Source: Streptomyces tendae
GTDB taxonomy: Bacteria > Actinomycetota > Actinomycetes > Streptomycetales > Streptomycetaceae
Assembly (NCBI RefSeq): GCF_014650435.1
Contig: NZ_BMUY01000002.1
Span: forward strand, 558,001 to 622,000
Direction: 5' to 3'
DNA length: 64,000 nucleotides
The position numbers and the translations under genes were made by a program. Below, one piece after another: positions 1,217-41,194 of this stretch. Each line of letters starts with the position of its first letter. Position 1 is the stretch's first letter. The notes below the pieces were generated by a model. It did not search any database. It was not told the DNA's origin and saw only the letters and a list, made by a program, of their open reading frames with translations.

Positions 1217-1230
1217 GTTCCACGTGAAAC
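1217..1230. promoter_or_regulatory. parS-like ParB-binding site (13/14)
   Basis: GTTCCACGTGAAAC differs by one base from the streptomycete parS consensus GTTTCACGTGAAAC. It lies between the Nudix start codon and the LysR stop codon. It is one of six such sites in the window. Confidence 0.7.
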
Positions 1231-1264
1231 ATCGTGACGCAGGGCCGGTTGAGAGGCCGCCGGC

Positions 1265-2170
1265 TCAGTTCCAGTCGGCGGCCGTGCGCAGCAGCCACTC
1301 GTGGGCCCGGGCGATGTGCGGCATCACCAACGTGCCGGTGCGCACCACCAGGAAGTACGTCCGCAGCGGCGGCACGGGCGGATCGTGCAGGGCGACGACG
1401 TCCCCGCGCTGCAGCGCCTCGGCGCACAGATAGCGGGGCAGGACGGCGAGTCCCGCTCCTGCCACCGCGCAGGCGAGAACCGCGCGCAGGTCGGGGGCGA
1501 CGACCGTGGCCGGGCCGGACGGTCGGGCGTCGAAGACGGAGGCCCAGTAGCGGGCGACGAAGGGCAGTGACTCGTGCACTTCGACCACGGGGATGTTCTT
1601 GAGTGCGGGCGCATCGGTGTCGCTGAGCTTCTCGACACCGGCACGCTCCGCCCAGTGCGGCGCGGCGACCAGGACGTGCACCTCGTCGCAGAGCGCAGTC
1701 GCCGTGAGCAGAGGGCCGCGGGGACGAGCCGTGCCGATGGCCAGATCGTGATGCCCGGCGGCCAGGCCTTCCAGGGTCTCCTCGGCGTTCCCGAAGGAGG
1801 CGCGCAGGGCGAAGGCCCGGCCGTCCTCGCCGGTGAGCCGGGAGAGCGAGGGCAGTGCGCGCTCGACGGTGAACTCGGGCGGTCCGGCCAGATGCAGGGT
1901 CCGCAGGGAGGAATCGTCGGTCAGCCCGCTCTCGGCGATCTCCACCAGGGCGTCGAGGTGCGGTGCGGTCTTGTGGGCGAGTTCGTCGCCGATGCTCGTC
2001 GGGGTCACGCCGCGGGCCTGCCGAAGGAACAGCGGGCGGCCGAGCTGACGCTCCAGCGTGCGGATCTGCGAGGTGACGGCGGGCTGGGAGAGGCCGAGCA
2101 GAGCAGCCGCGCGGGTGAAGGAACCGGCCCGGTGCACGGTGACGAAGGTGCGGAGCAAGGCCAGATCCAC
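1265..2170 (-). CDS. LysR-family transcriptional regulator
   Basis: A 301-residue protein of normal LysR length. The N-terminal winged helix-turn-helix is clear: MDLALLRTFVTVHRAGSFTR, then AALLGLSQPAVTSQIRTLER at about residues 23-42. The rest (about 90-295) is a periplasmic-binding-like effector domain. LysR proteins bind DNA as tetramers and respond to a small ligand. No divergent target gene is present: the upstream neighbour is the cystathionine-lyase-like gene on the same strand, so the target cannot be read from context. An imperfect palindrome at 2232-2247 upstream of the start is a candidate autoregulatory site. Confidence 0.9.
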   Translation of the reverse strand: MDLALLRTFVTVHRAGSFTRAAALLGLSQPAVTSQIRTLERQLGRPLFLRQARGVTPTSIGDELAHKTAPHLDALVEIAESGLTDDSSLRTLHLAGPPEFTVERALPSLSRLTGEDGRAFALRASFGNAEETLEGLAAGHHDLAIGTARPRGPLLTATALCDEVHVLVAAPHWAERAGVEKLSDTDAPALKNIPVVEVHESLPFVARYWASVFDARPSGPATVVAPDLRAVLACAVAGAGLAVLPRYLCAEALQRGDVVALHDPPVPPLRTYFLVVRTGTLVMPHIARAHEWLLRTAADWN

Positions 2171-2231
2171 GAAAACCCGTCCCCTCTTCTGTTCTTCTCC
2201 AGCCCCCGCTCGTCCTCAACTATAAATATGT

Positions 2232-2247
2232 CGATAGCGCGCTGTCG
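2232..2247. promoter_or_regulatory. Candidate LysR operator palindrome
   Basis: CGATAGCGCGCTGTCG is a 16-bp palindrome with one mismatched pair, in a locally AT-richer stretch (TATAAATATG just to its left) about 62-77 bp upstream of the LysR start codon. Its position fits autoregulation, but this is inference. Confidence 0.35.
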
Positions 2248-2317
2248 CTACTGTGATTGGACACTGACACTGAGTCAACTAGCCTTGGTCGCGCGGTTCT
2301 TCGCGCGCGGAACCGGA

Positions 2318-2356
2318 GGACGGTCCGAGCCACGAGGGGGGAGGCTCGGACCGTCC
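2318..2356 (-). terminator. Hairpin terminator after the PLP lyase gene
   Basis: Perfect 14-bp inverted repeat (GGACGGTCCGAGCC at 2318-2331, complement at 2343-2356) with an 11-nt loop. It starts 13 bp past the stop codon of the lyase gene. There is no strong U-tract, as is common in Streptomyces. Confidence 0.8.
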
Positions 2357-2368
2357 GTGCGTCCGGCG

Positions 2369-3547
2369 TCAGTCCGCCGTTTCGTCCAGCGCGCGCAGCA
2401 GGTCCGCCACCAGGTCGTCCGGGTCCTCAGCACCGACCGAGAGCCGGATGAAGCCTTCCGGGACCGCGTCGCCGCCCCAGCGTCCGCGCCGCTCCGCGGT
2501 GGACCGCACCCCGCCGAAGCTCGTCGCGCCCTCGACGAGCCGGAGCGCTTCGAGAAAGCGATCGGCACGCGCGCGCGAGGGCAGCGTGAAGGAGACGACG
2601 CAGCCGTAGCGCTGCATCTGCTGCGAGGCGATCTTGTGGGACGGGTCGTCGGGCAGCCCGGGGTACCGGAGGCCGGTGATCTCGGGCCGCGACCGGAGCG
2701 CTTCGGCCACCCTGAGCGCGGTGGCGTCCTGCCGGTCCACGCGCAGCTGGAGGGTGGCGATCGAGCGGTGCGCGAGCCATGCCTCCATGGGGCCGGGAAT
2801 CGCACCGACGATCTTGCGCCAGCGCCGTACGGCGGCCATCGCCCCGGCGTCGTGACCGGCCACGTAGCCGAGGAGGACGTCGCCGTGGCCGGTGAGCTGC
2901 TTGGTGCCGCTCGCCACCGAGAAGTCGGCGCCGAGCTCCAGCGGGCGCTGCCCGAGCGGTGTGGCGAGGGTGTTGTCGACGGCCACCAGGGCACCGCGCG
3001 CGTGCGCCGCCTCGACGAGCCGCCGTACGTCACACACGTCGAGCCCGGGGTTCGACGGCGTCTCGATCCACAGCAGCTTCGCCCCGTCCAGCACGTCGAG
3101 CTGGGCGTCCCGGCCGGTCGGCGCGGTGCGCACCTCGATGCCGTACGCCTCCAGCTGTGCGCGGACCAGCGGCAGCGCCTGGTAGCCGTCGTCGGGCAGG
3201 ACGGCAGTGTCGCCGGCGCGCAGCTGCGAGAAGAGCACGGACGAGATCGCGGCCATGCCGGACGCGAAGACGAGCGTCTCCACGTCGGACCGCCCGGGCG
3301 CCTCCAGCTCGCCGATGGCGCGCTCCAGGTGGGTCCAGGTGGGGTTCTCGTCGCGGCCGTAGGTGTACGGCCCGGTCGGGTCGCCCGGCAGGTGGAAGTG
3401 GGCGGCGAACACCGGACCGGGCAGGGTGGGTTCGTGCTTGACGGGTTCGGGCAGTCCGGCCCGCACCGCACGGGTGCCGTCACCGGGTCCGGAAGCGGCC
3501 CTCCCCGTGCCCGCTCCGCCCCCGCCGTTCGTAGCGGAATCGCTCAT
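2369..3547 (-). CDS. Cystathionine gamma-lyase/synthase family PLP enzyme
   Basis: A 392-residue member of the Cys/Met-metabolism PLP family. The Schiff-base lysine is K216 in SGTKQLTGHGD, the pyridine-nitrogen aspartate is D191 in VAVDNTLATP, and the phosphate-binding region FASGMAA is near residue 95. These enzymes cleave or form cystathionine, or act on other sulfur amino acids; motifs alone do not separate the subtypes. The Gly/Ala-rich N-terminus (residues 2-25) is an extension not needed for the fold. Its ATG overlaps the ptpA stop codon (ATGA), so the two are probably translationally coupled, and a strong hairpin follows the gene. Confidence 0.9.
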   Translation of the reverse strand: MSDSATNGGGGAGTGRAASGPGDGTRAVRAGLPEPVKHEPTLPGPVFAAHFHLPGDPTGPYTYGRDENPTWTHLERAIGELEAPGRSDVETLVFASGMAAISSVLFSQLRAGDTAVLPDDGYQALPLVRAQLEAYGIEVRTAPTGRDAQLDVLDGAKLLWIETPSNPGLDVCDVRRLVEAAHARGALVAVDNTLATPLGQRPLELGADFSVASGTKQLTGHGDVLLGYVAGHDAGAMAAVRRWRKIVGAIPGPMEAWLAHRSIATLQLRVDRQDATALRVAEALRSRPEITGLRYPGLPDDPSHKIASQQMQRYGCVVSFTLPSRARADRFLEALRLVEGATSFGGVRSTAERRGRWGGDAVPEGFIRLSVGAEDPDDLVADLLRALDETAD

Positions 3548-4038
3548 GCCGCCCGTCCTTCCACTTGCTCGCGTACCGTGGCGAGCAGTCCGGTGCTCGC
3601 CGCCTCCACCATCTCAAGGCACTCCTCGAAGCCGTCCTGGCCCCCGTAGTACGGGTCCGGGACGTCCAGGTCACCGCCCTCGGCGGCGGGGTCGTACGAC
3701 CGCAGCAGGCGCACCTTGGCCGCGTCCCGCTCCGTGGGGGCGAGACGCCGCAGGGCCCTCAGGTGCCCGGCGTCGAGGGCGACGACCAGGTCGAGACGGG
3801 AGAACCAGGACTGCTGGAACTGCCGGGCCGTGTGGTCGAGACCGTAACCGTGCTCCGTCAGTACGGCCACGGTGCGCGGGTCCGCGCCCTCGCCCTCGTG
3901 CCAGCCGCCGGTCCCGGCGCTGTCGGCCTCGACGAGGCCGTCGAGCCCGGCGTCCGCCACGCGCGCGTGGAAGACGGCCTCGGCGATCGGGGAGCGGCAG
4001 ATGTTGCCCGTGCACACGAAACAGACGCGGTAGGTCAT
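3544..4038 (-). CDS. ptpA: Low-molecular-weight protein tyrosine phosphatase PtpA
   Basis: A 164-residue protein starting MTYRVCFVCTGNICRS. The P-loop CX5R is C9-TGNIC-R15, followed by S16. The general-acid aspartate is D128 in DVPDPYYGG, as in the family. It dephosphorylates phosphotyrosine in cytosolic proteins; S. coelicolor PtpA has the same size and is linked to antibiotic production when overexpressed. The internal ATG was chosen because the P-loop always lies close to the N-terminus; the frame is open farther upstream but unrelated. It follows the holin-like gene by 5 bp and overlaps the lyase start by 4 bp. Confidence 0.95.
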   Translation of the reverse strand: MTYRVCFVCTGNICRSPIAEAVFHARVADAGLDGLVEADSAGTGGWHEGEGADPRTVAVLTEHGYGLDHTARQFQQSWFSRLDLVVALDAGHLRALRRLAPTERDAAKVRLLRSYDPAAEGGDLDVPDPYYGGQDGFEECLEMVEAASTGLLATVREQVEGRAA

Positions 4039-4043
4039 CGGGA

Positions 4044-4421
4044 TCAGTCCCCGTCGGGCAGGAACGCGTTCAGGGCCCAGGACACGATCGATACGATCAG
4101 GCCGCCCAGGACGGCGGTCCAGAACCCGTCGACGTGGAAGCTCACGTCGAGCTTGTCGGCCACCCATGACGTGAGCAACAGCATCAGCGCGTTGACCACC
4201 AGCGTGAACAGGCCGAGGGTCAGGATGAACAGCGGGAAGGTCAGCACCTGCACGATCGGCTTCACGACCATGTTGACCAGGCCGAAGACCAGCGCGACCA
4301 CGATCAGGGTGAGGGCCTTCTCCCCGGTGCTGCCGCCGGTCAGAGTGATCTTGTCGAGCAGCCACACGGCGACGGCGAGGGCGCCGGCGTTGGCGATCGT
4401 CTTGACTAGGAAATTCTTCAT
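4044..4421 (-). CDS. Phage-holin-family (PF04020-type) small membrane protein
   Basis: A 125-residue protein with four hydrophobic segments (about residues 7-23, 36-56, 60-80 and 97-117), starting MKNFLVKTIANAGALAVAVW. The pattern, including VVKPIVQVLTFPLFILTLG in the middle, matches the small four-helix PF04020 (YvlD-like) family of inner-membrane proteins. Their function is unknown; the holin name is historical and no lysis genes are nearby. It lies 5 bp upstream of ptpA, so the two probably share a transcript. Confidence 0.8.
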   Translation of the reverse strand: MKNFLVKTIANAGALAVAVWLLDKITLTGGSTGEKALTLIVVALVFGLVNMVVKPIVQVLTFPLFILTLGLFTLVVNALMLLLTSWVADKLDVSFHVDGFWTAVLGGLIVSIVSWALNAFLPDGD

Positions 4422-4480
4422 GTGTCTGATCGTGGCAGACGCGATCGGACACGAACGGCGAGGCAGGGGCGGACGAGGCG

Positions 4481-4798
4481 ATGAAGGCATTCCGGCTGGA
4501 CGAACTGGAGGCGGAGCGCGCCGCCAACGACGGTGCCTACCTGCAGTTCCTGCGGGAGCGGAACATGTCGGTCGGTCTGTACGCCCTCGACGCGGGGACG
4601 ACCGACCCGCAGAAGCCGCACGCTCAGGACGAGGTGTACTTCGTGGTGAGCGGGCGGGCCGCGATCACCGTGGGCATGGAGACCACCCAGGTCGCCCGCG
4701 GCAGCGTGGTCTACGTGCCGGCCGGGGTCGCCCACAAGTTCCACCACATCAGCGAGGACCTGCGGGTGCTGGTGGTGTTCTCTCCGCCGGAGAGCTGA
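4481..4798 (+). CDS. Small cupin-domain protein
   Basis: A 105-residue single-domain cupin. Cupin motif 1 is seen as PHAQDEVYFVVSG (about residues 46-60), with histidine and glutamate in metal-ligand positions, and motif 2 as VVYVPAGVAHKFHHI (about 77-92), with the third ligand histidine. The product is probably a cytosolic metal-binding protein; the substrate is unknown. It is divergent from the holin-like gene, with 59 bp between start codons that must hold both promoters. No close partner lies downstream. Confidence 0.8.
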   Translation: MKAFRLDELEAERAANDGAYLQFLRERNMSVGLYALDAGTTDPQKPHAQDEVYFVVSGRAAITVGMETTQVARGSVVYVPAGVAHKFHHISEDLRVLVVFSPPES

Positions 4799-4951
4799 GG
4801 CCCGACCCCCGGGTTCCCTAGGGGATCGGTCAGGGGGAGACAAGGGATGCGAGGTCCCTGCCGTGGCGCTCGCGGCTCTAGCATCGAGTGCAGGACATCA
4901 GAGGACTCCCCGGGACTGCCCGGGGCTCCCCGAGAGGTGAGGGCAAGGGCG

Positions 4952-5164: not shown

Positions 5165-5358
5165 GAGCCGTGGGACACCGGTGGCGGTAACAGGAACCAC
5201 CGGTTCCCTCGGGCGAGGGAAGTTTCCCGGACGGACCGTCGGTGAGCGGTGACCGGCGGTTAGAGTCCGGAACTCCACGCGGGGGCGACCTCGCGAACGG
5301 CGTACACCCCCACCCGTGTTCTCCGCACGGCTGCCACCTCGCGTTCCGGGAGTGACCC

Positions 5359-6207: not shown

Positions 6208-6307
6208 AAACTCACTCCTTGTGATCTGGTGTGTACGTTGAGCAAGATGCCACCAGTGTTAGAGGTTTGATTCCCGGACAGTCGACGGCGAATGACGGGG
6301 TAGGCGA

Positions 6308-6745: not shown

Positions 6746-6796
6746 ACCGTTACGGCAGCCCCGCGGCGATGACGTAACGCTTCGCCGGGCGGGGCC

Positions 6797-8326: not shown

Positions 8327-8406
8327 CGCCCGATCATCGCAAGAACGAGGGGGGCCCTCTGTTCACCGCGCCCGAATGGGCGCTAGCGTGGAGGCACCTT
8401 TGTACA

Positions 8407-10394
<1,988 letters not shown>

Positions 10395-17340: not shown

Positions 17341-17432
17341 AGCGTGTCCCGATTGCGCCCGCGTTGGGTGTGACAAACGCGCTCAAACCGCCGCTGACCA
17401 CGGCGGTGTGGCGAGGTGAGGAGAGTGACGAC

Positions 17433-18938
17433 GTGGACTTGGCTCTGGCGCCGGAGACGCTGGCGCGATGGCAGTTCGGCATCACGACCGTCTACCACTT
17501 CCTGTTCGTCCCGCTGACGATCTCGCTGGCCGCGCTGACGGCCGGACTGCAGACCGCCTGGGTCCGCACGGAGAAGGAGAAGTACCTCAGGGCGACCAAG
17601 TTCTGGGGCAAGCTCTTCCTGATCAACATCGCGATGGGTGTCGTCACCGGCATCGTGCAGGAGTTCCAGTTCGGTATGAACTGGTCCGACTACTCCCGCT
17701 TCGTGGGTGATGTCTTCGGCGCTCCGCTCGCCTTCGAGGCGCTGATCGCCTTCTTCTTCGAGTCCACCTTCATCGGCCTGTGGATCTTCGGCTGGGACAA
17801 GCTGCCCAAGAAGATCCACCTGGCCTGCATCTGGATGGTCTCGATCGGCACGCTGCTGTCGGCGTACTTCATCCTCGCGGCCAACTCCTGGATGCAGCAC
17901 CCCGTCGGCTACCGGATCAACGAGGAGAAGGGCCGCGCCGAACTCACCGACTTCTGGCAGGTCCTCACCCAGAACACCACCCTCAACCAGGTGTTCCACA
18001 GCTTCTCGGCGGCCTTCCTCACGGGTGGCGCCTTCATGGTCGGCATCGCGGCCTTCCACCTGATGCGCAAGAAGCACGTCCCGGTGATGCGCACCTCGCT
18101 CCGGCTCGGCCTGGTGACCCTGGCGGTCGGCGGCCTGCTCACCGCGGTCAGCGGCGACACCCTCGGCAAGGTCATGTACGAGCAGCAGCCGATGAAGATG
18201 GCCGCAGCCGAGGCCCTGTGGGACGGCGAGGAACCGGCGCCCTTCTCGGTGTTCGCCTACGGGGACGTCGACAAGGGGCACAACAAGGTGGCCCTGGAGA
18301 TCCCCGGACTGCTGTCGTTCCTCGCGCACAGCGACTTCGAGTCCTACGTGCCCGGCATCAACGACACCAACAAGGCCCTCCAGGAGCAGTTCGGCCCCGG
18401 CGACTACAAGCCCATCGTCCCCGTCGCCTACTGGGGCTTCCGGTGGATGATCGGGTTCGGCATGGCGTCCTTCTCCCTCGGCCTGCTCGGCCTGTGGCTG
18501 ACCCGGAAGCGGTTCCTGCTGCCACCGGCCCTGCGCACCGGGGAGGACGAGGTCCCGCACCTGGTGCTGCTGAAGAAGCCGCTCGGGGCGAAGCTCACCC
18601 GGATGTACTGGCTGCTGGCGCTGTGGACGATGGCGTTCCCGCTGATCGCCAACTCCTGGGGCTGGATCTTCACCGAGATGGGCCGCCAGCCCTGGGTCGT
18701 CTACGGCGTGATGCAGACGCGCGACGCGGTCTCCCCCGGTGTGTCCACCACCGAGGTCATCATCTCGATGTCCGTCTTCACCCTGCTGTACGCCGTCCTG
18801 GCCGTCATCGAGGTCAAGCTGCTGGCGAAGTACGTGAAGGCGGGACCGCCCGAGCTGACCGAGGCCGACCTCAATCCGCCCACGAAGATCGGCGGCGATC
18901 TCCGTGACGCCGACAAGCCGATGGCCTTCTCGTACTAG
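17433..18938 (+). CDS. cydA: Cytochrome bd ubiquinol/menaquinol oxidase subunit I
   Basis: A 501-residue, nine-helix membrane subunit carrying the haems. It begins with the typical ALAPETLARWQFGITTVYHF, where the histidine is a conserved haem ligand, and includes GRQPWVVYGVMQTRDAVSP near the end, as in CydA. Cytochrome bd reduces oxygen with high affinity and is used under microaerobic conditions. The GTG at 17433 is chosen because family homology starts there and GAGGAG lies nine bases upstream. It is first in cydA-cydB-cydCD, behind the Rex operator. Confidence 0.96.
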   Translation: MDLALAPETLARWQFGITTVYHFLFVPLTISLAALTAGLQTAWVRTEKEKYLRATKFWGKLFLINIAMGVVTGIVQEFQFGMNWSDYSRFVGDVFGAPLAFEALIAFFFESTFIGLWIFGWDKLPKKIHLACIWMVSIGTLLSAYFILAANSWMQHPVGYRINEEKGRAELTDFWQVLTQNTTLNQVFHSFSAAFLTGGAFMVGIAAFHLMRKKHVPVMRTSLRLGLVTLAVGGLLTAVSGDTLGKVMYEQQPMKMAAAEALWDGEEPAPFSVFAYGDVDKGHNKVALEIPGLLSFLAHSDFESYVPGINDTNKALQEQFGPGDYKPIVPVAYWGFRWMIGFGMASFSLGLLGLWLTRKRFLLPPALRTGEDEVPHLVLLKKPLGAKLTRMYWLLALWTMAFPLIANSWGWIFTEMGRQPWVVYGVMQTRDAVSPGVSTTEVIISMSVFTLLYAVLAVIEVKLLAKYVKAGPPELTEADLNPPTKIGGDLRDADKPMAFSY

Positions 18939-18958: not shown

Positions 18959-19963
18959 ATGGAACTGCACGACGTCTGGTTCGTTCTGATCGCCGTCCTG
19001 TGGACCGGCTACTTCTTCCTGGAGGGCTTCGACTTCGGGGTCGGTGTGCTGACCAAGCTGCTCGCCCGGAACCGGGCCGAGAAGCGGGTGCTGATCAACA
19101 CCATCGGCCCCGTGTGGGACGGCAACGAGGTGTGGCTGCTCACGGCCGGCGGTGCCACCTTCGCCGCCTTCCCCGAGTGGTACGCCACGCTCTTCTCCGG
19201 GTTCTACCTCCCCCTGCTGGTCATCCTGGTCTGCCTGATCGTCCGCGGAGTGGCCTTCGAGTACCGCGTGAAGCGGCCCGAGGAGAGGTGGCAGCGCAAC
19301 TGGGAGACCGCGATCTTCTGGACCTCGCTGATCCCCGCGTTCCTGTGGGGCGTGGCCTTCGGCAACATCGTCCACGGCGTGGAGATCGACCGGGACCTGG
19401 AGTACGTCGGCTCGGTCTGGGACCTGCTCAACCCGTACGCCCTTCTCGGCGGTCTGGTGACGCTGACGCTGTTCACCTTCCACGGAACGGTGTTCACCGC
19501 GCTCAAGACCGTCGGTGAGATCCGTGAGCGGGCGCGGACCCTGGCGCTGCGGGTCGGCCTGGTCACGGCCGTGCTGGCGCTGGCCTTCCTGATCTGGACG
19601 CAGGCCGACAGCGGGGACGCCAAGAGCCTGGTCGCCCTGGTCGTGGCCGTTGCCGCCCTGGCCGCCGCGCTGACGGCGAACCAGGCCGGGCGCGAGGGCT
19701 GGTCGTTCGCCCTGTCCGGCGTCACCATCGTGGCCGCCGTGGCGATGCTCTTCCTGACGCTCTTCCCGAACGTCATGCCGTCCACGTTGAACGCGGACTG
19801 GAGCCTCACCGTCACCAACGCCTCGTCCAGCGCCTACACGTTGAAGATCATGACCTGGCTGGCCGTGATCGCCACGCCCGTCGTCCTGCTCTACCAGGGC
19901 TGGACGTACTGGGTGTTCCGCAAGCGCATCGGCACCCAGCACCTCGCCGACGCCGCGCACTGA
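18959..19963 (+). CDS. cydB: Cytochrome bd oxidase subunit II
   Basis: A 334-residue integral membrane protein with about eight helices, starting MELHDVWFVLIAVLWTGYFF and containing EGFDFGVGVL and GPVWDGNEVWLLTAGGA, diagnostic of CydB. It pairs with CydA in the oxidase. The ATG lies 20 bp after the cydA stop codon, so it is co-transcribed. A 50-nt inverted repeat containing a parS site lies right after its stop. Confidence 0.96.
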   Translation: MELHDVWFVLIAVLWTGYFFLEGFDFGVGVLTKLLARNRAEKRVLINTIGPVWDGNEVWLLTAGGATFAAFPEWYATLFSGFYLPLLVILVCLIVRGVAFEYRVKRPEERWQRNWETAIFWTSLIPAFLWGVAFGNIVHGVEIDRDLEYVGSVWDLLNPYALLGGLVTLTLFTFHGTVFTALKTVGEIRERARTLALRVGLVTAVLALAFLIWTQADSGDAKSLVALVVAVAALAAALTANQAGREGWSFALSGVTIVAAVAMLFLTLFPNVMPSTLNADWSLTVTNASSSAYTLKIMTWLAVIATPVVLLYQGWTYWVFRKRIGTQHLADAAH

Positions 19964-19970
19964 GTCCAAC

Positions 19971-20020
19971 GGGATGCCGTTTCACTGCGTTTCACGTGAA
20001 ACACGGTGAAACGGCATCCC
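19971..20020 (+). terminator. Large stem-loop between cydB and cydCD, enclosing parS
   Basis: A 15-bp perfect stem (GGGATGCCGTTTCAC at 19971-19985, complement at 20006-20020) encloses a 20-nt loop that is itself mostly the palindrome GTTTCACGTGAAAC. The whole 50 nt can fold into one long hairpin. It could act as an intra-operon terminator/attenuator or an RNA-stability element that lowers cydCD expression relative to cydAB; which of these is inference. Confidence 0.55.
19989..20002. promoter_or_regulatory. parS site (perfect consensus)
   Basis: GTTTCACGTGAAAC, a 14/14 match to the streptomycete parS consensus bound by ParB. It sits in the loop of the cydB-cydCD hairpin, 48 bp (centre to centre) from a second perfect site. 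Confidence 0.9.
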
Positions 20021-20036: not shown

Positions 20037-20050
20037 GTTTCACGTGAAAC
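20037..20050. promoter_or_regulatory. parS site (perfect consensus) over the cydCD start codon
   Basis: GTTTCACGTGAAAC, 14/14. Its central GTG (20044-20046) is the probable start codon of cydCD, so the parS sequence also encodes the first residues (V/M-K-P). Confidence 0.9.
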
Positions 20051-23000
20051 CCATCGATCCACGTCTTCTGCGCTACGCCCGCGCCACCCGGTTCTTCCTG
20101 GCAGCGGTCGTCGCTCTGGGGGCCGTCGGGGCCGGCTTGCTCGTCGCGCAGGCGATGCTCATCGCCGAGGTGGTGGTCGGCGCCTTCCAGCACGGCACTC
20201 CGGTCGCCGGGCTCCGTACCCCTCTCCTGCTGTTGGTGGCCGTCGCCTGCGGCCGGGCGCTGGTCGGCTGGCTCACCGAACTGGCCGCGCACCGGGCGAG
20301 CGCGGCGGTGAAGTCGGAGTTGCGTGGCCGGCTCCTGGAGCGGGCCACCGCCCTCGGCCCCGGCTGGCTGGGCGGACAACGGACCGGCTCGCTGGTCGCC
20401 CTCGCCACCCGGGGCATCGACGCCCTGGACGACTACTTCTCGCGCTATCTGCCGCAACTGGGCCTGGCGGTGGTCGTGCCGGTGGCGGTGCTGGCCCGCA
20501 TCGTCACCGAGGACTGGGTCTCGGCGGCCATCATCGTCGGCACGCTGCCCCTCATCCCGATCTTCATGATGCTGATCGGCTGGGCCACCCAGTCCCGGAT
20601 GGACCGCCAGTGGCGGCTGCTGTCACGGCTGTCCGGACACTTCCTGGACGTGGTCGCGGGGCTGCCCACGCTGAAGGTCTTCGGCCGGGCCAAGGCACAG
20701 GCCGAGTCGATCAAACGCATCACCGGCGAGTACCGGCGGGCGACCCTGCGGACCCTGCGGATCGCCTTCCTGTCGTCCTTCGCGCTGGAACTGCTGGCCA
20801 CGCTGTCCGTCGCACTCGTCGCCGTCACCATCGGCATGCGCCTGGTCCACGGCGACATGGCCCTGTACGACGGCCTGGTCGTGCTGGTCCTCGCTCCCGA
20901 GGCGTATCTGCCGCTGCGGCAGGTGGGGGCGCAGTACCACGCGGCGGCCGAAGGGCTCGCCGCCGCCGAGGACATCTTCTCGGTGCTGGAGCGCCCGGTA
21001 CCGGCGTCGGGGACCGGGCCGGTACCGGCGGACGGTGCGCTGGCCTTCGAGGACGTGACGGTCCGCTACCCGGGTCGCGCCGCGGCGGCTGTCGCGGACG
21101 TGAACCTGACCGTCGAGCCCGGGGAGACGGTCGCGCTGGTCGGCCCCAGCGGGGCGGGCAAGTCGACCCTCCTGCACGCCCTCCTCGGCTTCGTCTCCCC
21201 GACCGGCGGACGGGTCCTGGTCGGCGGAGCCGACCTCGCCTCCCTCGACCGGGCGCAGTGGCACGCCCGCGTCGCCTGGGTGCCGCAGCACCCGCACCTG
21301 TACGCCGGCACCATCGCGGAGAACGTACGGCTGGCCCGACCCGACGCCGACGACACCGCCGTCCGCCGGGCATTGCGGGACGCGGGCGCGCTGGAGTTCG
21401 TGGACGCGCTGCCCGAGGGCCCGGCGACCGTCCTCGGGGAGGACGGAACCGGCCTGTCCGCCGGACAGCGGCAGCGGCTGGCGCTGGCCCGCGCGTTTCT
21501 CGCGGACCGGCCGGTGCTGCTGCTCGACGAACCGACGGCGGCTCTGGACGGGGCCACCGAGGCCGAGGTCGTGGACGCCGTGCGCAGGCTGGCCAAGGGG
21601 CGGACGGTCCTGCTGGTGGTGCACCGCCCGGCGCTGCTGGAGGTGGCCGACCGCGTGGTGCGGCTGGACACCCCGGCAACCGTCGTCGCATCCGGCGACA
21701 GCAGCGTGCTGCCGGCCGCCGCGGAGGCGGGCACCCGCTCTCCCGCTCCGGGCCTCTCCGACGAGCCGGCCGCCGTGGCCGCTCATCCCGCCGAGTCCGC
21801 TGCGCAGGCGCGCGGGGGCGTACTGTCCCGGGTCCGTGCCATGTCCTCCGCGCGGCGCGGGCGGCTCACTCTCGCGCTGCTGCTCAGCTCTCTGGCGCTC
21901 GGCAGCGCCGTCGGCCTGATGGCGACCTCCGGCTACCTCATCTCGCGGGCCTCCGAGCAGCCGCCGGTGCTGTACCTGATGGTGGCCGTGACGGCGACGC
22001 GTGCCTTCGGCATCGGCCGGGCCGTGTTCCGCTACGCGGAGCGACTCGTCTCGCACGACGCCGTGCTGCGGATGCTGGCCGACACGCGGGTCGCCGTGTA
22101 CCGGCGGCTGGAGCGGCTGGCCCCCGCGGGGCTGCACCGCAGCCGCCGGGGCGACCTGCTGTCCCGGCTCGTCGCCGATGTCGACGCCTTGCAGGACTAC
22201 TGGCTGCGCTGGCTGCTGCCCGCCGGCAGCGCGCTGTTCGTCTCCGTCGCGGCGGTCGGCTTCACGGCCTGGCTGCTGCCGGAGGCGGGCGCCGTGCTCG
22301 CGGCCGGCCTGCTCGCGGCCGGTGTCGGCGTTCCACTGGTCACCGCGGCCGTGGCCCGGCGGGCCGAGCGTCGGCTCGCCCCCGCCCGGGGCGTGCTCGC
22401 CACCCGGGTGACGGACCTGCTCACCGGCACGGCCGAGCTGACCGTCGCCGGTGCCCTGCCCGGTCGTGCCGCCGAGGCGCGGCGGGCCGACGGCATCCTC
22501 ACCCGGATCGGCTCGCGGGCCGCGACCGCCACCGCGCTGGGCGACGGGCTCACCGCGCTCGTCTCCGGTCTGACCGTCGCGGGCGCCGCCCTCGTCGGGG
22601 TCCAGGCGGTCGCCGACGGCCGGCTCGCCGGGGTGGCCGTGGCCGTCGTCGTCCTGACCCCGCTGGCGGCCTTCGAGGCCGTACTCGGACTGCCGCTCGC
22701 CGTGCAGTACCGGCAGCGCGTGCGCAGGAGCGCCGAGCGCGTGTACGAGGTGCTCGACGCCCCGGAGCCGGTGCGGGAGCCGGAGTTGCCCCGGCAGGCG
22801 CCCGCGTCGCCGTTCCCGGTGGTCCTCAAGGGGCTGGACGCGCGTCACGCCGGGCAGGACAGGGACGCGCTGGCGGGGCTTGACCTGACGCTGGCGGAGG
22901 GGCGCCGCGTCGCCGTGGTCGGGCCGTCCGGGTCCGGCAAGACGACCCTGGCCCAGGTGCTGCTGCGCTTCCTCGACCCGGACGCGGGCTCCTACACGCT

Positions 23001-23562
23001 GGCCGGTGTCGACGCCTGCGCCCTGGCCGGCGACGACGTACGGCGGCTCGTCGGGCTGTGCGCCCAGGACGCGCACCTCTTCGACAGCTCGGTCCGCGAG
23101 AACCTGCTCCTGGCCAGGAAGGACGCCACCGAGGGCGAACTGCGCGACGCGCTGGCGCGAGCCCGGCTGCTGGATTGGGCCGACAGCCTGCCCGACGGCC
23201 TGGACACACTGGTCGGGGAACACGGGGCCCGGTTGTCCGGTGGCCAGCGTCAGCGGCTCGCCCTGGCCCGGGCGCTGCTCGCCGACTTCCCCGTCCTCGT
23301 GCTCGACGAGCCCGCCGAGCACCTCGACCTGCCGACCGCCGACGCGCTCACCGCCGATCTGCTGGCCGCCACCGAGGGCCGCACGAGCCTGCTGATCACG
23401 CACCGGCTGGCGGGACTGGGGGCCGTGGACGAGGTGATCGTGCTGGACCGGGGCCGGGTCGTGCAGCGCGGTACGTACGCGGAGCTGGCGGCCGTACCGG
23501 GGCCGCTGCGGGAGATGGCCGGACGGGAGGCGGCGGCGGAACTGCTGGTGGGAGCGGTGTGA
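20044..23562 (+). CDS. cydCD: CydC-CydD fused ABC exporter for cytochrome bd assembly
   Basis: A 1172-residue fusion of two ABC half-transporters (CydD-like then CydC-like), each with about six helices and an ATPase. The first ATPase has Walker A GPSGAGKST, signature LSAGQRQRLALARAF and Walker B VLLLDEPTAALDG; the second has GPSGSGKTT, LSGGQRQRLALARAL and VLVLDEPAEHLD. CydDC exports thiols such as cysteine and glutathione and is needed to assemble haem bd; mycothiol pathway thiols are the likely substrate here (inference). The GTG at 20044 has AGGAAGG ten bases upstream; an upstream in-frame GTG at 19996 lies inside the hairpin and is less likely. Confidence 0.93.
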   Translation: MKPIDPRLLRYARATRFFLAAVVALGAVGAGLLVAQAMLIAEVVVGAFQHGTPVAGLRTPLLLLVAVACGRALVGWLTELAAHRASAAVKSELRGRLLERATALGPGWLGGQRTGSLVALATRGIDALDDYFSRYLPQLGLAVVVPVAVLARIVTEDWVSAAIIVGTLPLIPIFMMLIGWATQSRMDRQWRLLSRLSGHFLDVVAGLPTLKVFGRAKAQAESIKRITGEYRRATLRTLRIAFLSSFALELLATLSVALVAVTIGMRLVHGDMALYDGLVVLVLAPEAYLPLRQVGAQYHAAAEGLAAAEDIFSVLERPVPASGTGPVPADGALAFEDVTVRYPGRAAAAVADVNLTVEPGETVALVGPSGAGKSTLLHALLGFVSPTGGRVLVGGADLASLDRAQWHARVAWVPQHPHLYAGTIAENVRLARPDADDTAVRRALRDAGALEFVDALPEGPATVLGEDGTGLSAGQRQRLALARAFLADRPVLLLDEPTAALDGATEAEVVDAVRRLAKGRTVLLVVHRPALLEVADRVVRLDTPATVVASGDSSVLPAAAEAGTRSPAPGLSDEPAAVAAHPAESAAQARGGVLSRVRAMSSARRGRLTLALLLSSLALGSAVGLMATSGYLISRASEQPPVLYLMVAVTATRAFGIGRAVFRYAERLVSHDAVLRMLADTRVAVYRRLERLAPAGLHRSRRGDLLSRLVADVDALQDYWLRWLLPAGSALFVSVAAVGFTAWLLPEAGAVLAAGLLAAGVGVPLVTAAVARRAERRLAPARGVLATRVTDLLTGTAELTVAGALPGRAAEARRADGILTRIGSRAATATALGDGLTALVSGLTVAGAALVGVQAVADGRLAGVAVAVVVLTPLAAFEAVLGLPLAVQYRQRVRRSAERVYEVLDAPEPVREPELPRQAPASPFPVVLKGLDARHAGQDRDALAGLDLTLAEGRRVAVVGPSGSGKTTLAQVLLRFLDPDAGSYTLAGVDACALAGDDVRRLVGLCAQDAHLFDSSVRENLLLARKDATEGELRDALARARLLDWADSLPDGLDTLVGEHGARLSGGQRQRLALARALLADFPVLVLDEPAEHLDLPTADALTADLLAATEGRTSLLITHRLAGLGAVDEVIVLDRGRVVQRGTYAELAAVPGPLREMAGREAAAELLVGAV

Positions 23563-27491: not shown

Positions 27492-28397
27492 TCAGTCCTT
27501 CAGCTGCGCCAGTGCTTCCATCGCGATCCGCTCGAAGATCTTCTCGTCCGCGGCGAAGTCCGAGTCCGGGATCGGCCAGTGGACGACGAGCTCGGTGAAG
27601 CCCAGGTCCCGATGGCGTCCGGCGAAGTCCACGAACGCGTCCACGGACTCCAGCGGGCGACTGCGCTCCGGTGTGAATCCGGTGAGCAGGATCCTGTCCA
27701 GCTCATCGGCATCGCGGCCGATGGCGGCGCAGGCGTCGGCCAGCCGGTCGCCCTGCTGCCGCAGCGCCCGGGCCGACTGCTCGGGGGTGCCGTTCTCGAA
27801 CAGCTTCGGGTCACCGGTCGTCACCCACGCCTGGCCGTGGCGGGCGGCGAGTGCCAGACCCCGTGGGCCGGTCGCGGCCACCGCGAAGGGCAGCCGGGGC
27901 CGCTGCACACAGCCCGGAATGTTGCGCGCCTCGTGCGCCGAGTAGAAATCGCCCTCGTACGACACGGCGTCCTCGGTCAGCAGCCGGTCGAGCAGCGGGA
28001 GGAACTCGCCGAACCGGTCGGCCCGCTCCCGCGGCGTCCAGGGCTCCTGGCCCAGCGCCGTGGCGTCGAAGCCGGTGCCGCCCGCTCCTATGCCGAGGGT
28101 GATCCGCCCGCCGGAGATGTCGTCCAGGGAGATCAGCTCCTTGGCGAGCGTCACCGGGTGCCGGAAGTTCGGCGAGGTGACCAGGGTGCCCAGGCGCAGC
28201 CGCTCGGTCATGGCCGCGGCGGCGGTGAGGGTCGGCACGGCACCGAACCACGGTCCGTCCCGGAAGCTGCGCCAGGAGAGGTGGTCGTAGGTGTAAGCGG
28301 TGTGGAAGCCGAGCTGCTCGGCCCGCGTCCAGGTCGAACGGCCGCCTTCGTGCCAGCGGCGGTACGGAAGGATCACGGTGCTCAGACGCAGACTCAT
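27492..28397 (-). CDS. LLM-class F420-dependent oxidoreductase
   Basis: A 301-residue luciferase-like monooxygenase-fold protein. Diagnostic parts are AEQLGFHTAYTYDHLSWRSF, LRLGTLVTSPNFRHPVTLAK, and SGGRITLGIGAGGTGFDATA, the flavin-binding region. In actinomycetes this clade commonly uses coenzyme F420. The substrate is unknown. A perfect parS site (28425-28438) lies in the short gap upstream of its start codon. Confidence 0.85.
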   Translation of the reverse strand: MSLRLSTVILPYRRWHEGGRSTWTRAEQLGFHTAYTYDHLSWRSFRDGPWFGAVPTLTAAAAMTERLRLGTLVTSPNFRHPVTLAKELISLDDISGGRITLGIGAGGTGFDATALGQEPWTPRERADRFGEFLPLLDRLLTEDAVSYEGDFYSAHEARNIPGCVQRPRLPFAVAATGPRGLALAARHGQAWVTTGDPKLFENGTPEQSARALRQQGDRLADACAAIGRDADELDRILLTGFTPERSRPLESVDAFVDFAGRHRDLGFTELVVHWPIPDSDFAADEKIFERIAMEALAQLKD

Positions 28398-28424: not shown

Positions 28425-28438
28425 GTTTCACGTGAAAC
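28425..28438. promoter_or_regulatory. parS site (perfect consensus)
   Basis: GTTTCACGTGAAAC, 14/14, in the 52-bp gap between the LLM oxidoreductase start and the stop of the next upstream gene, so binding of ParB here could touch the promoter. Confidence 0.88.
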
Positions 28439-37041: not shown

Positions 37042-38315
37042 TTGGCCACCGGCTCCAGGACCTCCCGGCCGCCCAGGTACGGGCGCAGCACCTCGGGCAC
37101 CCGGACCGAACCGTCGGCCTGCTGGTGGTTCTCCAGGATCGCCACGATCGTGCGCGGTACGGCGCACAGCGTGCCGTTGAGCGTGGCCAGCGGACGCACC
37201 TTCTTGCCCTCGCGGACGCGGATCGACAGCCGGCGGGACTGGAACTCGGTGCAGTCCGAGGTCGAGGTCAGCTCGCGGTACTTGCCCTGGGTCGGGATCC
37301 ACGCCTCGCAGTCGTACTTGCGCGCGGCCGAGGAGCCCAGGTCGGCCGAGGCCACGTCGATCACCCGGAACGGCAGCTCCAGCGACGTCAGCCACTGCTT
37401 CTCCCAGTCCAGCAGGCGCTGGTGCTCGGCCTGCGAGTCCTCGGGCAGGACGTAGGAGAACATCTCGACCTTGTCGAACTGGTGCACGCGGAAGATGCCC
37501 CGGGTGTCCTTGCCGTGCGAGCCCGCCTCGCGGCGGAAGCAGGGCGAGAAGCCGGCGTAGCGCAGCGGCAGGCGGTCGGCGTCCAGGATCTCGTCCATGT
37601 GGTACGCGGCGAGCGGCACCTCGGACGTGCCGACCAGGTACAGGTCGTCCTTGTCGAGGTGGTAGACGTCCTGGGCGGCCTGGCCGAGGAAGCCGGTGCC
37701 GGCCATCGACTGCGGGCGCACCAGGGCCGGGGTCAGCATCGGCGTGAAGCCGGCCGCCGTGGCCTGGGCGATCGCCGCGTTGACCAGGGCCAGCTCCAGG
37801 AGGGCGCCCACGCCGGTCAGGAAGTAGAAGCGCGAGCCGGAGACCTTGGCGCCGCGCTCCACGTCGATGGCGCCGAGCAGCTGGCCCAGCTCCAGGTGGT
37901 CCCTGGGCTCGAAGCCCTCGGCGGCGAAGTCGCGGTGCGTGCCGTGCGTCTCCAGCGTGACGAAGTCCTCCTCGCCGCCGACGGGCACGTCGGGGTGGAC
38001 GAGGTTGCCGAGCCGCTGGAGCAGCTCCTGGGTCTCGGCGTCGGCCGCGTCACGCTCGGTGTCGGCGGCCTTGACGTCGGTCTTCAGCTGCTCGGCCCGC
38101 TTGAGGAGCTCGGCCTTCTCGTCCCCGGTGGCCTTGCCGATGAGCTTGCCGAGGCCCTTCTGCTCGGCGCGCAGCTCGTCGAAACGGACGCCGGACGACC
38201 TGCGCCGTTCGTCGGCGGACAGGAGGGAGTCGACGAGCGCGACGTCCTCTCCACGGGCGCGCTGCGAGGCGCGCACACGGTCGGGGTCCTCACGGAGCAG
38301 GCGAAGGTCAATCAC
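37038..38315 (-). CDS. serS: Seryl-tRNA synthetase
   Basis: A 425-residue class-II synthetase that charges tRNA-Ser. Residues about 30-105 form the antiparallel coiled-coil arm ([20 protein letters not shown]) that binds the long variable arm of tRNA-Ser. The catalytic core has motif 2 [20 protein letters not shown] and motif 3 [17 protein letters not shown]. The GTG at 38315 is used because homology begins at [12 protein letters not shown]. Upstream is a 561-bp intergenic region rich in DnaA boxes; no T-box leader is seen. Confidence 0.97.
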
Positions 38316-38876
38316 GCGGTCAAGGCTACCGGTGCGTGGTGCCGGGTCTCGACCCACTATTGCCGTACGCGGGCCGGACGCCCCGTTCGACTGGTCAATG
38401 GAGTGTTGCGGCATCCCCGGAAGGAGGCGCCGCGTGGGCGTCGGGTTGACCGGATTTCCTTGTGGGGAACGGGACTTGAGGCGTGACTGTCCACAGGAAT
38501 CCACAGCCCGGAAAAGTTATCCACAGGGTGTGCGAAAGATCTGTGGATGCACGGAAGTGATCATTCCCAATTCTTGGAGGCGGGTTGTTCAAACCCTTCA
38601 TGCCCGCACTTTCGAGTGGAAACGGGACACCGGGTGTCACTCCGGAGGATGGGGTGCAAGAAACAGGTGGACGAAGGGTGACCTGGGTCCCTGTGGGCGA
38701 AGTGAGGTGCCGTAGGGGGATTTGTCGACCAAATGCCGCTTCGTTGTCGACTTGTCCCCAGGTCGAGAAGCGGACCTGTGGATAACTCCTGTGGACAACG
38801 AAAATCGGCAGATAGGACCGTCGGTCGTTTCCGATGGCCGGAACCGGCGGTCAGGACCGACGGCCGGAGCCGACGG
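38316..38876. promoter_or_regulatory. Intergenic region with a cluster of DnaA boxes
   Basis: No gene is supported here. It has DnaA-box 9-mers at 38487-38495 (CTGTCCACA), 38497-38505 (GAATCCACA, weak), 38517-38525 (TTATCCACA, perfect), 38542-38550 (minus, GCATCCACA, weak), 38777-38785 (minus, TTATCCACA, perfect) and 38790-38798 (minus, TTGTCCACA, the preferred Streptomyces box). The left boxes mostly point right and the right boxes point left. The serS promoter must also lie here. Confidence 0.8.
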
Positions 38877-39809
38877 TCAGAACCGTCCGTCCTGGCAGCG
38901 CGCCACCCAGTCCGCCGCCGCCACGAACGCCTCGTCCGAGGTGCCCGGCCGCAGCGCGTCCACGTCGGCGGGCGCGACCTCCGCGCGGGGATACGACCCG
39001 AGGTAGCGCACCTGGAGGCAGGTCCGCTTCAGGCCCATCAGCGCGTCGGCCACCCGGCGGTCGGAGATGTGCCCCTCGGCGTCGATGCAGAAGCAGTAGT
39101 TGCCGATACCGGCGCCCGTGGGCCGGGACTGCAGCAGCATCAGGTTGATGCCACGGGTGGCGAACTCGCCCAGCAGATCGCGCAGGCCGCCGGGGTGGTC
39201 GTCGCGCTGCCAGAGCACGACGGACGTCTTGTCCGCCCCGGTCGGCGCCGCGGGCCGGGCCGGGCGGCCCACCAGCACGAAGCGCGTCTGGGCGTTCTCC
39301 GCGTCGTGGATGTCGGCCTCCAGCACCTCCAGGCCGTAGCGCTCCGCGGCGAACTCACCGGCGAAGGCCGCGTCGTACCGGCCCTCCTGCACCAGGCGGG
39401 CGCCGTCCGCGTTGGAGGCGGCCGATTCCCAGGCGACGTCCGGGAGGTGCGCCTTGATCCAGTTGCGGACCTGGGGCTGCGCGGCCGGGTGGGCCGTGAC
39501 CGTCTTGATGTCCGACAGCTTGGTGCCGGGGCGGACCAGCAGCGCGAAGGTGATGGAGAGCAGCACCTCGCGGTAGATCATCAGCGGCTGGCCGGCGACC
39601 AGCTCGTCGAGGGTGGTGGTGATACCGCCCTCGACGGAGTTCTCGATCGGCACGAACGCGGCCTCGGCCTCGCCGGTGCGCACCGCGTCGAGCGCGGACT
39701 GCACCGAGACGTACGGGACGAGTTCCCGGGTCGCCGTCTCCGGGAGGGTGCGCAGGGCGACTTCGGTGAAGGTGCCTTCAGGGCCGAGATACGCGTAACT
39801 GGCTGGCAT
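38877..39809 (-). CDS. pheA: Prephenate dehydratase
   Basis: A 310-residue monofunctional prephenate dehydratase of the phenylalanine pathway. The catalytic half starts ASYAYLGPEGTFTEVAL and contains PIENSVEGGITTTLDEL and the TRF motif in NAQTRFVLVGR. The C-terminal ACT domain (about residues 195-300; LLQSRPTGAGIGNYCFCIDA) gives feedback control by phenylalanine. There is no chorismate mutase domain. It is followed by the DnaA-box region. Confidence 0.96.
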   Translation of the reverse strand: MPASYAYLGPEGTFTEVALRTLPETATRELVPYVSVQSALDAVRTGEAEAAFVPIENSVEGGITTTLDELVAGQPLMIYREVLLSITFALLVRPGTKLSDIKTVTAHPAAQPQVRNWIKAHLPDVAWESAASNADGARLVQEGRYDAAFAGEFAAERYGLEVLEADIHDAENAQTRFVLVGRPARPAAPTGADKTSVVLWQRDDHPGGLRDLLGEFATRGINLMLLQSRPTGAGIGNYCFCIDAEGHISDRRVADALMGLKRTCLQVRYLGSYPRAEVAPADVDALRPGTSDEAFVAAADWVARCQDGRF

Positions 39810-39889
39810 GTCCTCACCCTAATGGGCCCGGCGACACCCGGCTCACGCGTCCCGCACAAGCCCCTCCGCGGGGTGATGCGCCCCCGGAT

Positions 39890-41194
39890 TCACCCCTCCA
39901 GCAGCCGCTGCCCCACGTACTCTCCCTCCGACGCCCCGCCCGGCACCGCGAACAGCCCGCTGGCCTCGTGCCGGATGAACTGGGACAGCGCGTCGCCCCG
40001 GTCCAGCTTGCGCTGCACCGGCACGAAGCCCCGCAGCGGATCGGCCTGCCAGCAGATGAAGAGCAGCCCGGCGTCCGGGACGCCGTCGGTGTCGAAGCCG
40101 TCGTGGTAGGAGAAGGGGCGCCGGACCATGGCCGCGCCGCCGTTCTGGTCGGGGCGGGTGATCCGGGCGTGGGCGTTGATCGGAACGACGAGTTTCCCGG
40201 CGGCGTCCGTCTTCTCCAGGTCCATTTCCGTCGTCTCGGTGGCCCCGCTCCCCCCGGACAGCGGTGCCCCGTCCGACTTGCGGCGCCCGATGACCTCCTC
40301 CTGGGCCTTGAGGGACAGGTCCTCCCAGTCGTCGAGGAGCATGCGGATGCGGCGTACGACGACGTAGGAGCCGTTCGCCATCCAGGCGGGCCCGCCCGTG
40401 CCGGACCCGGGCGCCTCCGGCACGAAGATCCGCTTGTCGAAGTCGGCGTCGGCGGGCTTCGGGTTGCGGGTGCCGTCGACCTGGCCCATGAGGTTGCGGG
40501 CGGTCATGGGGTGGGCGGTGGCGCCGGGCGAGCGGTTGAAGCCGTTCATCTGCCAGCGGATGCGGGCCGCCGTCCCGGCGTCCCGCTGGATGGCGCGCAG
40601 GGCGTGGAAGGCCACCAGGGCGTCGTCGGCGCCGATCTGCACCCACAGGTCGCCGTTGCTGCGGTTCTTGTCGAGGTGGTCGGAGGAGAAGTCGGGGAGC
40701 GGATCGAGGGCGACCGGGCGCTGCTCGCCGAGCCCGGTCCGGCCGAAGAAGCTGTGCCCGAATCCGAAGGTGACGGTCAGCGAGGAGGGCCCGGCGTCCC
40801 GGGCCACGTCCGTGTCACGGGTTCCGGCCGGTTCGCCCGCCATCAGCCGCCGGGCCGTGTCCGACCAGCGGCGCAGCAGTGCGGCGGCCTCCTTGCGGCC
40901 GGCGCCGGCCGCAAGGTCGAAGGCGATGAGGTGGCCGCGGGCCTGCATCGGGGTGGTGATGCCGGGCTGATGTTTCCCGTGAAACATCGCCTGCTCGCCA
41001 CCGAGCGAGGTGAGGGGAGTGGCGGCGGAGGAGGGCGCGGCGGCGTAGCCCGCGGCGGCCCCCGCCGCACCGAGGACGAGCCCGGTGGCACCCGCGGTGC
41101 CGAGCAGCCGTCGTCGCGAGAGGCCCTCGGGGGCGGTGGCGTTTCCAGGGATCCCGGGGTCCGAGGGGGTCGCCTGGTTGGACTGGTCAGGCAT
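39890..41194 (-). CDS. dtpA: Tat-exported DyP-type haem peroxidase DtpA
   Basis: A 434-residue dye-decolourising peroxidase. A twin-arginine signal is at residues 26-50 (LSRRRLLGTAGATGLVLGAA). The DyP motif GXXDG is GQVDGTRN, and the proximal haem-histidine region is in the C-terminal half (FSYHDGFDTDGVPDAGL). In S. lividans the matching extracellular peroxidase DtpA lies in the same Sco/copper cluster and is needed for maturation of the copper oxidase GlxA. It is last in the operon, 8 bp after the CopC-CopD gene. Codons at 40972-40985 form a parS-like site. Confidence 0.92.
   Translation of the reverse strand: MPDQSNQATPSDPGIPGNATAPEGLSRRRLLGTAGATGLVLGAAGAAAGYAAAPSSAATPLTSLGGEQAMFHGKHQPGITTPMQARGHLIAFDLAAGAGRKEAAALLRRWSDTARRLMAGEPAGTRDTDVARDAGPSSLTVTFGFGHSFFGRTGLGEQRPVALDPLPDFSSDHLDKNRSNGDLWVQIGADDALVAFHALRAIQRDAGTAARIRWQMNGFNRSPGATAHPMTARNLMGQVDGTRNPKPADADFDKRIFVPEAPGSGTGGPAWMANGSYVVVRRIRMLLDDWEDLSLKAQEEVIGRRKSDGAPLSGGSGATETTEMDLEKTDAAGKLVVPINAHARITRPDQNGGAAMVRRPFSYHDGFDTDGVPDAGLLFICWQADPLRGFVPVQRKLDRGDALSQFIRHEASGLFAVPGGASEGEYVGQRLLEG
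40972..40985. promoter_or_regulatory. parS-like site (13/14) inside dtpA
   Basis: GTTTCCCGTGAAAC (plus strand; GTTTCACGGGAAAC on the coding strand) lies in dtpA codons for MFHGKH. It is extended by one palindromic base pair on each side (ATG...CAT). It is the same variant as the site at 8460-8473. Confidence 0.65.

Follow-up and report, generated by a model that had tools for sequence, protein, structure and literature searches.

Three of six parS and parS-like sites near the likely oriC of Streptomyces tendae overlap the predicted cydCD start codon, a stem of a predicted thiC riboswitch and codons of dtpA

We analyzed parS, the palindrome bound by the segregation protein ParB, in a 64,000-nt stretch of Streptomyces tendae DNA (the window; contig NZ_BMUY01000002.1, here C2, positions 558001-622000, from a source genome, G000, of 8.89 Mb in 139 contigs). 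The window holds six parS or parS-like sites, and we consider it probable that these are genuine, act as predicted ParB-loading sites and have been kept by selection despite bases shared with other codes. As far as a literature search shows, no parS that overlaps a predicted gene start, the stem of a predicted riboswitch or protein-coding triplets has been described; this search, which excluded subscription papers (including Jakimowicz 2002) and supplements, found no parS in a start codon, in a riboswitch or at cydCD.

Scanning the window for the 14-bp palindrome GTTTCACGTGAAAC returned three perfect copies of chromosomal parS (19989-20002, 20037-20050 and 28425-28438) and three close variants with one mismatch, at 1217-1230 (GTTCCACGTGAAAC), 8460-8473 (GTTTCACGGGAAAC) and 40972-40985 (GTTTCCCGTGAAAC), all at the positions given by an earlier note on this DNA, and no further match with up to three mismatches. 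This density is far above chance, as 100 dinucleotide shuffles of the window gave a mean of 1.01 matches at up to three mismatches, a maximum of 5, and none reached 6. Genome-wide, GTTTCACGTGAAAC occurs in 19 perfect, four one-mismatch and two two-mismatch copies, while the reversed-pattern control was found at one place with up to two mismatches. Chance as the origin of the imperfect sites was ruled out because the whole 8.89 Mb contains four one-mismatch copies, three of which fall within this 64-kb window. Elsewhere in the genome, a one-mismatch parS lies ~430 kb from the likely oriC (C2:83100; L018:8100), one perfect copy is on another contig (C8:30262; L019:10262), and an outlying perfect copy ~250 kb from the likely oriC (C2:764771; L017:9771) has flanks resembling tRNA-gene sequence. 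The palindrome is extended by at least 3 bp in 6 of the 19 perfect genomic copies, and those at C2:536669 and C2:554845 (L012, L013) are centered in longer perfect palindromes with 14 and 8 extra bp per side, respectively.

The density of sites had led to the claim that the window lies within a few hundred kilobases of oriC and belongs to the segrosome loading zone, and locating dnaA and oriC, the check proposed for it, bore out the distance. A DnaA domain match (263.6 bits) was found at C2:516200-516685, and 9 of the 55 DnaA-box-like 9-mers (up to one mismatch) in the 220 kb scanned cluster in C2:515 kb, so that the six sites (C2:559217-598985) are 43-84 kb, not megabases, from the likely oriC, on its parAB side. 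ParB is encoded at C2:523.2-523.7 kb (203.3 bits, cut-off 58.45), side by side with one or more ParA-family open reading frames (ORFs), all at ~C2:521.9-524.1 kb; the ParA matches are strong by E-value and below the curated cut-offs. Eighteen of the 19 perfect genomic copies lie on C2, where they span 408-765 kb with 3 to the left and 15 to the right of dnaA; together with parAB nearby, they support the segrosome reading as a predicted loading zone. The clustering of parS near oriC with parA and parB was found here, with ParA assigned from family matches under their cut-offs. By sequence, the six sites form the outer right-hand part of a parS cluster around the likely oriC, at which ParB loading is predicted. 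Clustering to the right of oriC is ordinary and already published for Streptomyces, with 79.86% of sites on that side as reported for 20 closed genomes (PMC8743542). Two further ParB-family matches were detected at C31:3412 and C25:26915, the latter below the cut-off, possibly on plasmids or other mobile elements.

To describe how the sites recur, we used 296 Streptomyces genomes; the nearest named relative among the compared loci was Streptomyces sp. MH60, with 98% identity in CydA and 97% across three genes. All 41 genus genomes examined have 10-39 parS with up to one mismatch, compared with 0-4 for the reversed control, and the individual sites of the window are kept in relatives, each being missing in some of them.

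At the cyd locus one perfect parS covers the predicted start of cydCD and another sits at the tip of an inverted repeat upstream of it:

17364-18938, plus strand: cydA (PF01654, 567.5 bits)
18959-19963, plus strand: cydB (TIGR00203, 347.5 bits, cut-off 117.3)
19971-20020, plus strand: long inverted repeat between cydB and cydCD (RNA hairpin of -39.3 kcal/mol, z -7.86)
19979-19985 and 20006-20012, plus strand: parS half-sites in the arms of the repeat (sequence)
19989-20002, no strand assigned: perfect parS at the tip of the repeat (sequence scan and fold)
20037-20050, plus strand: perfect parS over the predicted cydCD start (sequence scan)
20044-23562, plus strand: cydCD fusion, CydD plus CydC (TIGR02857, 974.4 bits; TIGR02868, 937.3 bits; both over cut-off)

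The parS at 20037-20050 includes the predicted GTG start (20044-20046), the Lys2 codon AAA and the first base of Pro3, in a predicted opening of GTG AAA CCC ATC GAT (M-K-P-I-D). The fused parS/cydCD-start motif was matched in 260 of the 296 genomes, with none for the reversed control, and a generic cydCD start pattern in 279; both patterns are strict and each misses starts (G056, G094, G098 and G154 were matched by the fused pattern only). Of 80 CydA-anchored loci, 64 had an alignment from residue 1 and were compared, 8 starting later and the loci with no hit being excluded. At the exact position -7 of cydCD, 38 of the 64 had a perfect parS and two had one mismatch; the remaining 24, which include genera other than Streptomyces, showed 4-9 mismatches. 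In a separate 16-genome anchored sample, cydCD of G048 and G016 aligned from residues 594 and 623, and their 8 and 12 mismatches represent invalid anchors.

All 40 carriers start GTG AAA, as parS requires, and among the 24 loci lacking parS, 16 start ATG AAG or GTG AAG and five use AAA. Because the M-K start is common to species without parS, the right half of the site is largely start-codon sequence. Its left half lies just ahead of the start, after a Shine-Dalgarno-like core; a core of this kind, loosely defined and counted without a control, lies 8-15 nt from the GTG in 41 of 41 carriers, window included. The in-frame GTG, the upstream core and the parS-less homologs starting at the same codon are all consistent with a cydCD start predicted to lie within parS. 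An additional parS with up to one mismatch was present between cydB and cydCD in 16 of 41 carriers, in some cases centered in a long inverted repeat (e.g., L020, L035 and L038), and the repeat at 19971-20020 could act as a terminator or attenuator. In Streptomyces sp. SID11385 (L053:7135-7312), five parS, one of them with a mismatch, stand in a row just downstream of cydCD. In Streptomyces sp. HPF1205 (L055:12588-12660), all three sites before cydCD have the GTTCCAC form, one with both halves changed.

Two other apparent start-codon overlaps outside the window were set aside. The leader of gene g28, preceded by the parS at C2:543606, seems to continue into an inverted repeat, and ORF g13, at the parS at C2:521707, was probably called on the wrong strand, given the ParA-family ORF that comes next. 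Since parS always contains GTG, the longest-ORF rule puts false starts at parS.

The site at 40972 lies inside the coding region of the gene for DtpA, a peroxidase linked to copper trafficking and development:

39890-41194, minus strand: gene of the DyP-type peroxidase / EfeB family (TIGR01412, 569.8 bits, cut-off 428; scanned as 39890-41158)
40972-40985, minus strand: one-mismatch parS in the coding sequence, residues 70-75 (sequence scan and translation)

TIGR01412 identifies the product as a DyP peroxidase of the EfeB/DtpA type, and PDB matches mark it as an ortholog, by sequence, of S. lividans DtpA / SCO3963 (EfeB, DyP family; 4gt2, SCO3963, 890.8 bits; 5mjh, DtpA, 811.5 bits), with the same F-H-G-K-H-Q-P-G-I peptide. 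Unlike in DtpA as known, it is the DNA alone that is unusual here, with rare codons spelling a near-parS. On the gene strand the site reads A[TG] TTT CAC GGG AAA C[AT], or M-F-H-G-K-H, and the 14-mer was identical in 10 of 10 genomes with the residue aligned (16 examined, six unaligned in this stretch), with varying flanking codons. Among 90 genes near this origin, delimited by a simple calling rule, TTT accounts for 2.2% of Phe, AAA for 4.6% of Lys, GGG for 16.6% of Gly and CAT for 10.4% of His codons.

The F-H-G-x-H-Q-x-G-I motif was found in 255 of the 296 genomes, and codons were compared in 150 rows from 92 genomes, among the matches listed, by a pattern that presumes Gly. Within these, TTTCACGGGAAAC was present in 64 rows, one per genome in 64 genomes, and the other 86 rows had TTC in 84 cases and AAA in none. 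Among the latter are paralogs at other places and 11 copies located less than 40 kb from the cydCD start (G108, G180, G173, G181, G037, G202, G082, G016, G041, G033 and G048); in these 11 the Phe codon is TTC and the fourth residue is K, D, A, S, T, V or E. The Gly of F-H-G-x-H is kept in all five PDB alignments shown, three of which are DtpA/SCO3963 itself. Completing the palindrome would replace GGG (Gly) with GTG (Val), so the mismatch was plausibly forced by the protein.

The site at 8460 falls in the leader of thiC, in an extended stem of a predicted thiamine pyrophosphate (TPP) riboswitch:

8398-8587, plus strand: predicted TPP riboswitch upstream of thiC (RF00059, 37.3 bits, E 7e-6, model 1-105, full-length)
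8460-8473, plus strand: one-mismatch parS in the 5' arm of the extended P3 stem (sequence scan and alignment)
8493-8506, plus strand: 3' arm of the P3 stem, parS-like with 5 mismatches, covarying with the 5' arm
8580-10394, plus strand: thiC (NF006763, 980.6 bits, cut-off 650)

The element resembles the TPP (THI) riboswitch RF00059 in aligning over the full length of the aptamer (1-105) upstream of a thiamine gene, and differs from it in a P3 enlarged by an 86-nt insert that contains the 8460 parS and in a score below the curated gathering value (37.3 versus 54.3 bits); a scan at that threshold did not list it. The assignment as a predicted riboswitch is based on the full-length alignment and the place before thiC rather than on the cut-off, and the score may be depressed by the length of the P3 insert. 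The literature search found no paper on a TPP riboswitch with parS in P3.

Among 48 thiC leaders (35, window included, plus 13 relatives; three thiC loci without a pattern match were left out), the best parS match was perfect in 5, had one mismatch in 22 and 5-7 mismatches in 21, with no leader at 2-4. Two relatives, G011 and G289, fell outside this set through a pattern miss, though the anchored alignment showed 0 and 1 mismatch there. Leaders without the site were mostly shorter, with 64-104 nt between landmarks compared to 100-136 nt with it. A pattern requiring the first riboswitch strand and, after a gap of 16 nt, the outline of parS was matched in 127 of the 296 genomes, 9 of them with a perfect site and 118 with exactly one mismatch (G11 in 67, A8 in 34, G9 in 15 and C4 in 2), though up to four were allowed; this pattern cannot see every decay because it fixes the other positions.

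Covariation was followed in the 14 of the 48 leaders that share one length, 136 nt. The P3 stem was 98.3% paired in these, and 13 cells had changed on both stem sides, compared with 7.4 for shuffles; slid structures gave 0-2. Site position 9 and its partner formed G-C in 6 leaders and U-A in 6 and were unpaired in 2; position 11 and its partner formed A-U in 7 and G-C in 4 and were unpaired in 3. Throughout, the 5' arm kept one mismatch to parS, with 2-5 in the 3' arm. We read this as a stem that must pair as RNA and whose 5' arm is, in addition, kept close to parS by some second constraint.

The two remaining sites lie upstream of minus-strand genes:

713-1195, minus strand: NUDIX hydrolase gene (PF00293, 54.2 bits)
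1217-1230, minus strand: parS with one mismatch (gene strand: GTTTCACGTGGAAC), at -35 to -22 relative to the predicted start of the NUDIX gene at 1195
27492-28397, minus strand: luciferase-like (LLM) oxidoreductase gene (PF00296, 148.1 bits)
28425-28438, no strand assigned: perfect parS flanked by two minus-strand genes, 28 nt before the predicted start of the luciferase-like gene

The NUDIX leader site was identical in 9 of 16 genomes, with 5-8 mismatches in the other seven, and GTTTC starts this stretch in all 16, including the seven without the site. The one-mismatch variant with its flank was matched by pattern in 99 of the 296 genomes; the perfect form with a looser flank was matched in two, of which only G012 has it at a fitting distance from cydCD. 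The site at 1217 is a recurrent variant. The parS at 28425 was found near the same genes in several relatives. The window also contains a member of the Scr3920 small RNA family (RF02828, 144.5 bits) at 2233-2359, beside a LysR gene near the 1217 site, and a tRNA gene at 60405-60491.

At the cydCD, thiC and NUDIX places, parS was present with at most one mismatch or gone (at least 4), and half-decayed forms were absent from the anchored samples, a pattern that fits the prediction from selection on a binding site. The sites may have arisen where conserved sequence already matched parS in part, such as the M-K-P start codons, the NUDIX GTTTC and the F-H-G-x-H codons, and a mismatch would then be the price of the other code, a glycine at 40972 or an RNA pair at 8460. 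By the proposed mechanism, ParB-CTP (cytidine triphosphate) clamps would load at the six sites and slide a few kb. ParB-CTP is reported to load at parS and slide; in S. venezuelae the ParB chromatin immunoprecipitation (ChIP) signal reaches up to 2.5-3 kb on each side (PMC12511625). The one-mismatch sites would load ParB more weakly, and those at 8460 and 40972, with mismatches in the core, would probably be the weakest.

The cluster resembles those published for Streptomyces (24 sites in S. coelicolor, 16-17 in S. venezuelae) in the palindrome, the clustering around oriC and the bias to the right; ParB binding was demonstrated there by ChIP-seq in S. venezuelae (PMC12207404, PMC4852455, PMC12511625, PMC8743542). 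It differs in its base-exact and recurrent one-mismatch sites, and start codons, riboswitches and codons go unmentioned in the passages compared from those descriptions, whose site lists are in supplements. The mixture of perfect and imperfect sites recalls parS1-parS10 of Pseudomonas aeruginosa, where ParB is reported to bind each of the ten parS in vitro, even those with two mismatches, at affinities that form a ranking, and where GTTCCAC, the half-site found at 1217-1230, is the standard half (PMC4368675). The six two-mismatch sites of P. aeruginosa are described as dispersed (PMC4368675), unlike the one-mismatch sites here, three of the four genomic copies of which lie within 40 kb near oriC.

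Several observations weigh against genuine sites maintained by selection. The compared genomes are related and do not represent independent samples, and the patterns went unmatched in 36 of the 296 for the fused cydCD motif, in 169 for thiC (where the pattern misses at least two carriers, G011 and G289) and in 197 for NUDIX. The cydCD start within parS and the thiC riboswitch are themselves predictions. The dtpA site is less all-or-none than the others, as among the matches listed 2 of the 86 other rows would have three mismatches and 5 would have four. In the thiC stem, two measures were not above shuffles: the number of pairs changed on both sides (4 versus 2.9; 63 of 500 shuffles were at least as high) and that of further pair types (12 versus 12.1; 451 of 500). 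Much of the 8460 site could be kept by the riboswitch stem without any other cause. A tree of 35 thiC rows gave at least 6 changes over all rows, at least 4 among the 21 carriers and 3 in presence, so that the variants represent few events; many independent one-mismatch changes had been expected, and convergence is not claimed because the tree gave only these. Finally, in P. aeruginosa the one-mismatch sites, slightly weaker in binding, are reported to deviate in the terminal base of a 16-mer, which the 14-mer used here does not include, and binding to suffer more when the CACGTG core, whose intactness mattered, is altered (PMC4368675); the mismatches of 8460 and 40972 fall in this core.

These points bear differently on the alternative explanations. 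That this is an ordinary parS cluster whose positions arose by chance, with meaningless overlaps with start codon, riboswitch and codons, we consider rather unlikely: the published right-of-oriC clustering in 20 closed genomes (PMC8743542) and the resemblance of 28425 to a plain intergenic site are in keeping with it, but chance placement is at odds with the base-exact recurrence at cydCD (260/296), dtpA (10/10 aligned) and the NUDIX leader (9/16) and leaves the fixed rare codons of dtpA unexplained. It is unlikely, too, that the one-mismatch sites have no parS function and are kept by RNA structure (8460), protein (40972) and promoter elements (1217), resembling parS by descent only. The covariation of the 8460 arm with its partner on some measures, the Gly kept in the five alignments (three being DtpA/SCO3963 itself), the occurrence of GTTTC at -35 of the NUDIX gene in all 16 genomes (seven of them siteless) and the two mismatches in the core that mattered in P. 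aeruginosa (PMC4368675) all suit this explanation. However, protein sequence alone cannot explain the TTT, AAA and CAT codons, the 11 of 86 siteless dtpA rows (among the matches listed) within 40 kb of the cydCD start use TTC and a varied fourth residue, and RNA pairing alone cannot explain why the 5' arm stays at one mismatch with the 3' arm at 2-5.

It is possible that ParB on the sites changes expression of cydCD, thiC or dtpA. In a stronger form, in which ParB would be a regulator that, by loading at these genes, represses genes of respiration, thiamine and copper-linked functions or coordinates their timing with segregation or sporulation, we regard this as doubtful. Raised ParB is reported to strengthen repression of promoters beside parS3 and parS4 in P. 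aeruginosa (PMC5521831), and the cydCD, thiC and NUDIX sites are at a predicted start or in leaders; yet repression is less readily expected from the site that lies within a coding sequence, and the sites are missing in part of the species. That another protein recognizing a CACGTG-type palindrome is the ligand instead of ParB seems very improbable, since the perfect copies of the genome cluster around parAB and dnaA and the ParB ChIP peaks of S. venezuelae are reported to coincide almost all with parS (PMC4852455), even though the motif is a generic palindrome and the genome has the two additional ParB-family matches on C31 and C25 (that on C25 below cut-off).

parS is usually treated as a free-standing tag, and here the same bases serve two codes. 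A mismatch that stays fixed in some parS copies could reflect a trade-off with an amino acid of the protein or with a pair in the RNA. As the two codes are separable by single-base changes, the affinity needed for segregation and the effect of ParB on neighboring genes become testable at natural sites. A bolder picture, which we put forward tentatively and think improbable as a whole, is that of a Streptomyces centromere co-encoded with metabolism, in which parS would form the start codon of the cytochrome bd assembly transporter gene, an arm of the thiamine riboswitch and a stretch of the copper-linked peroxidase gene. ParB loading would directly gate these genes during origin segregation, and the need for parS would in turn determine which codon, which residue and which RNA stem is used.

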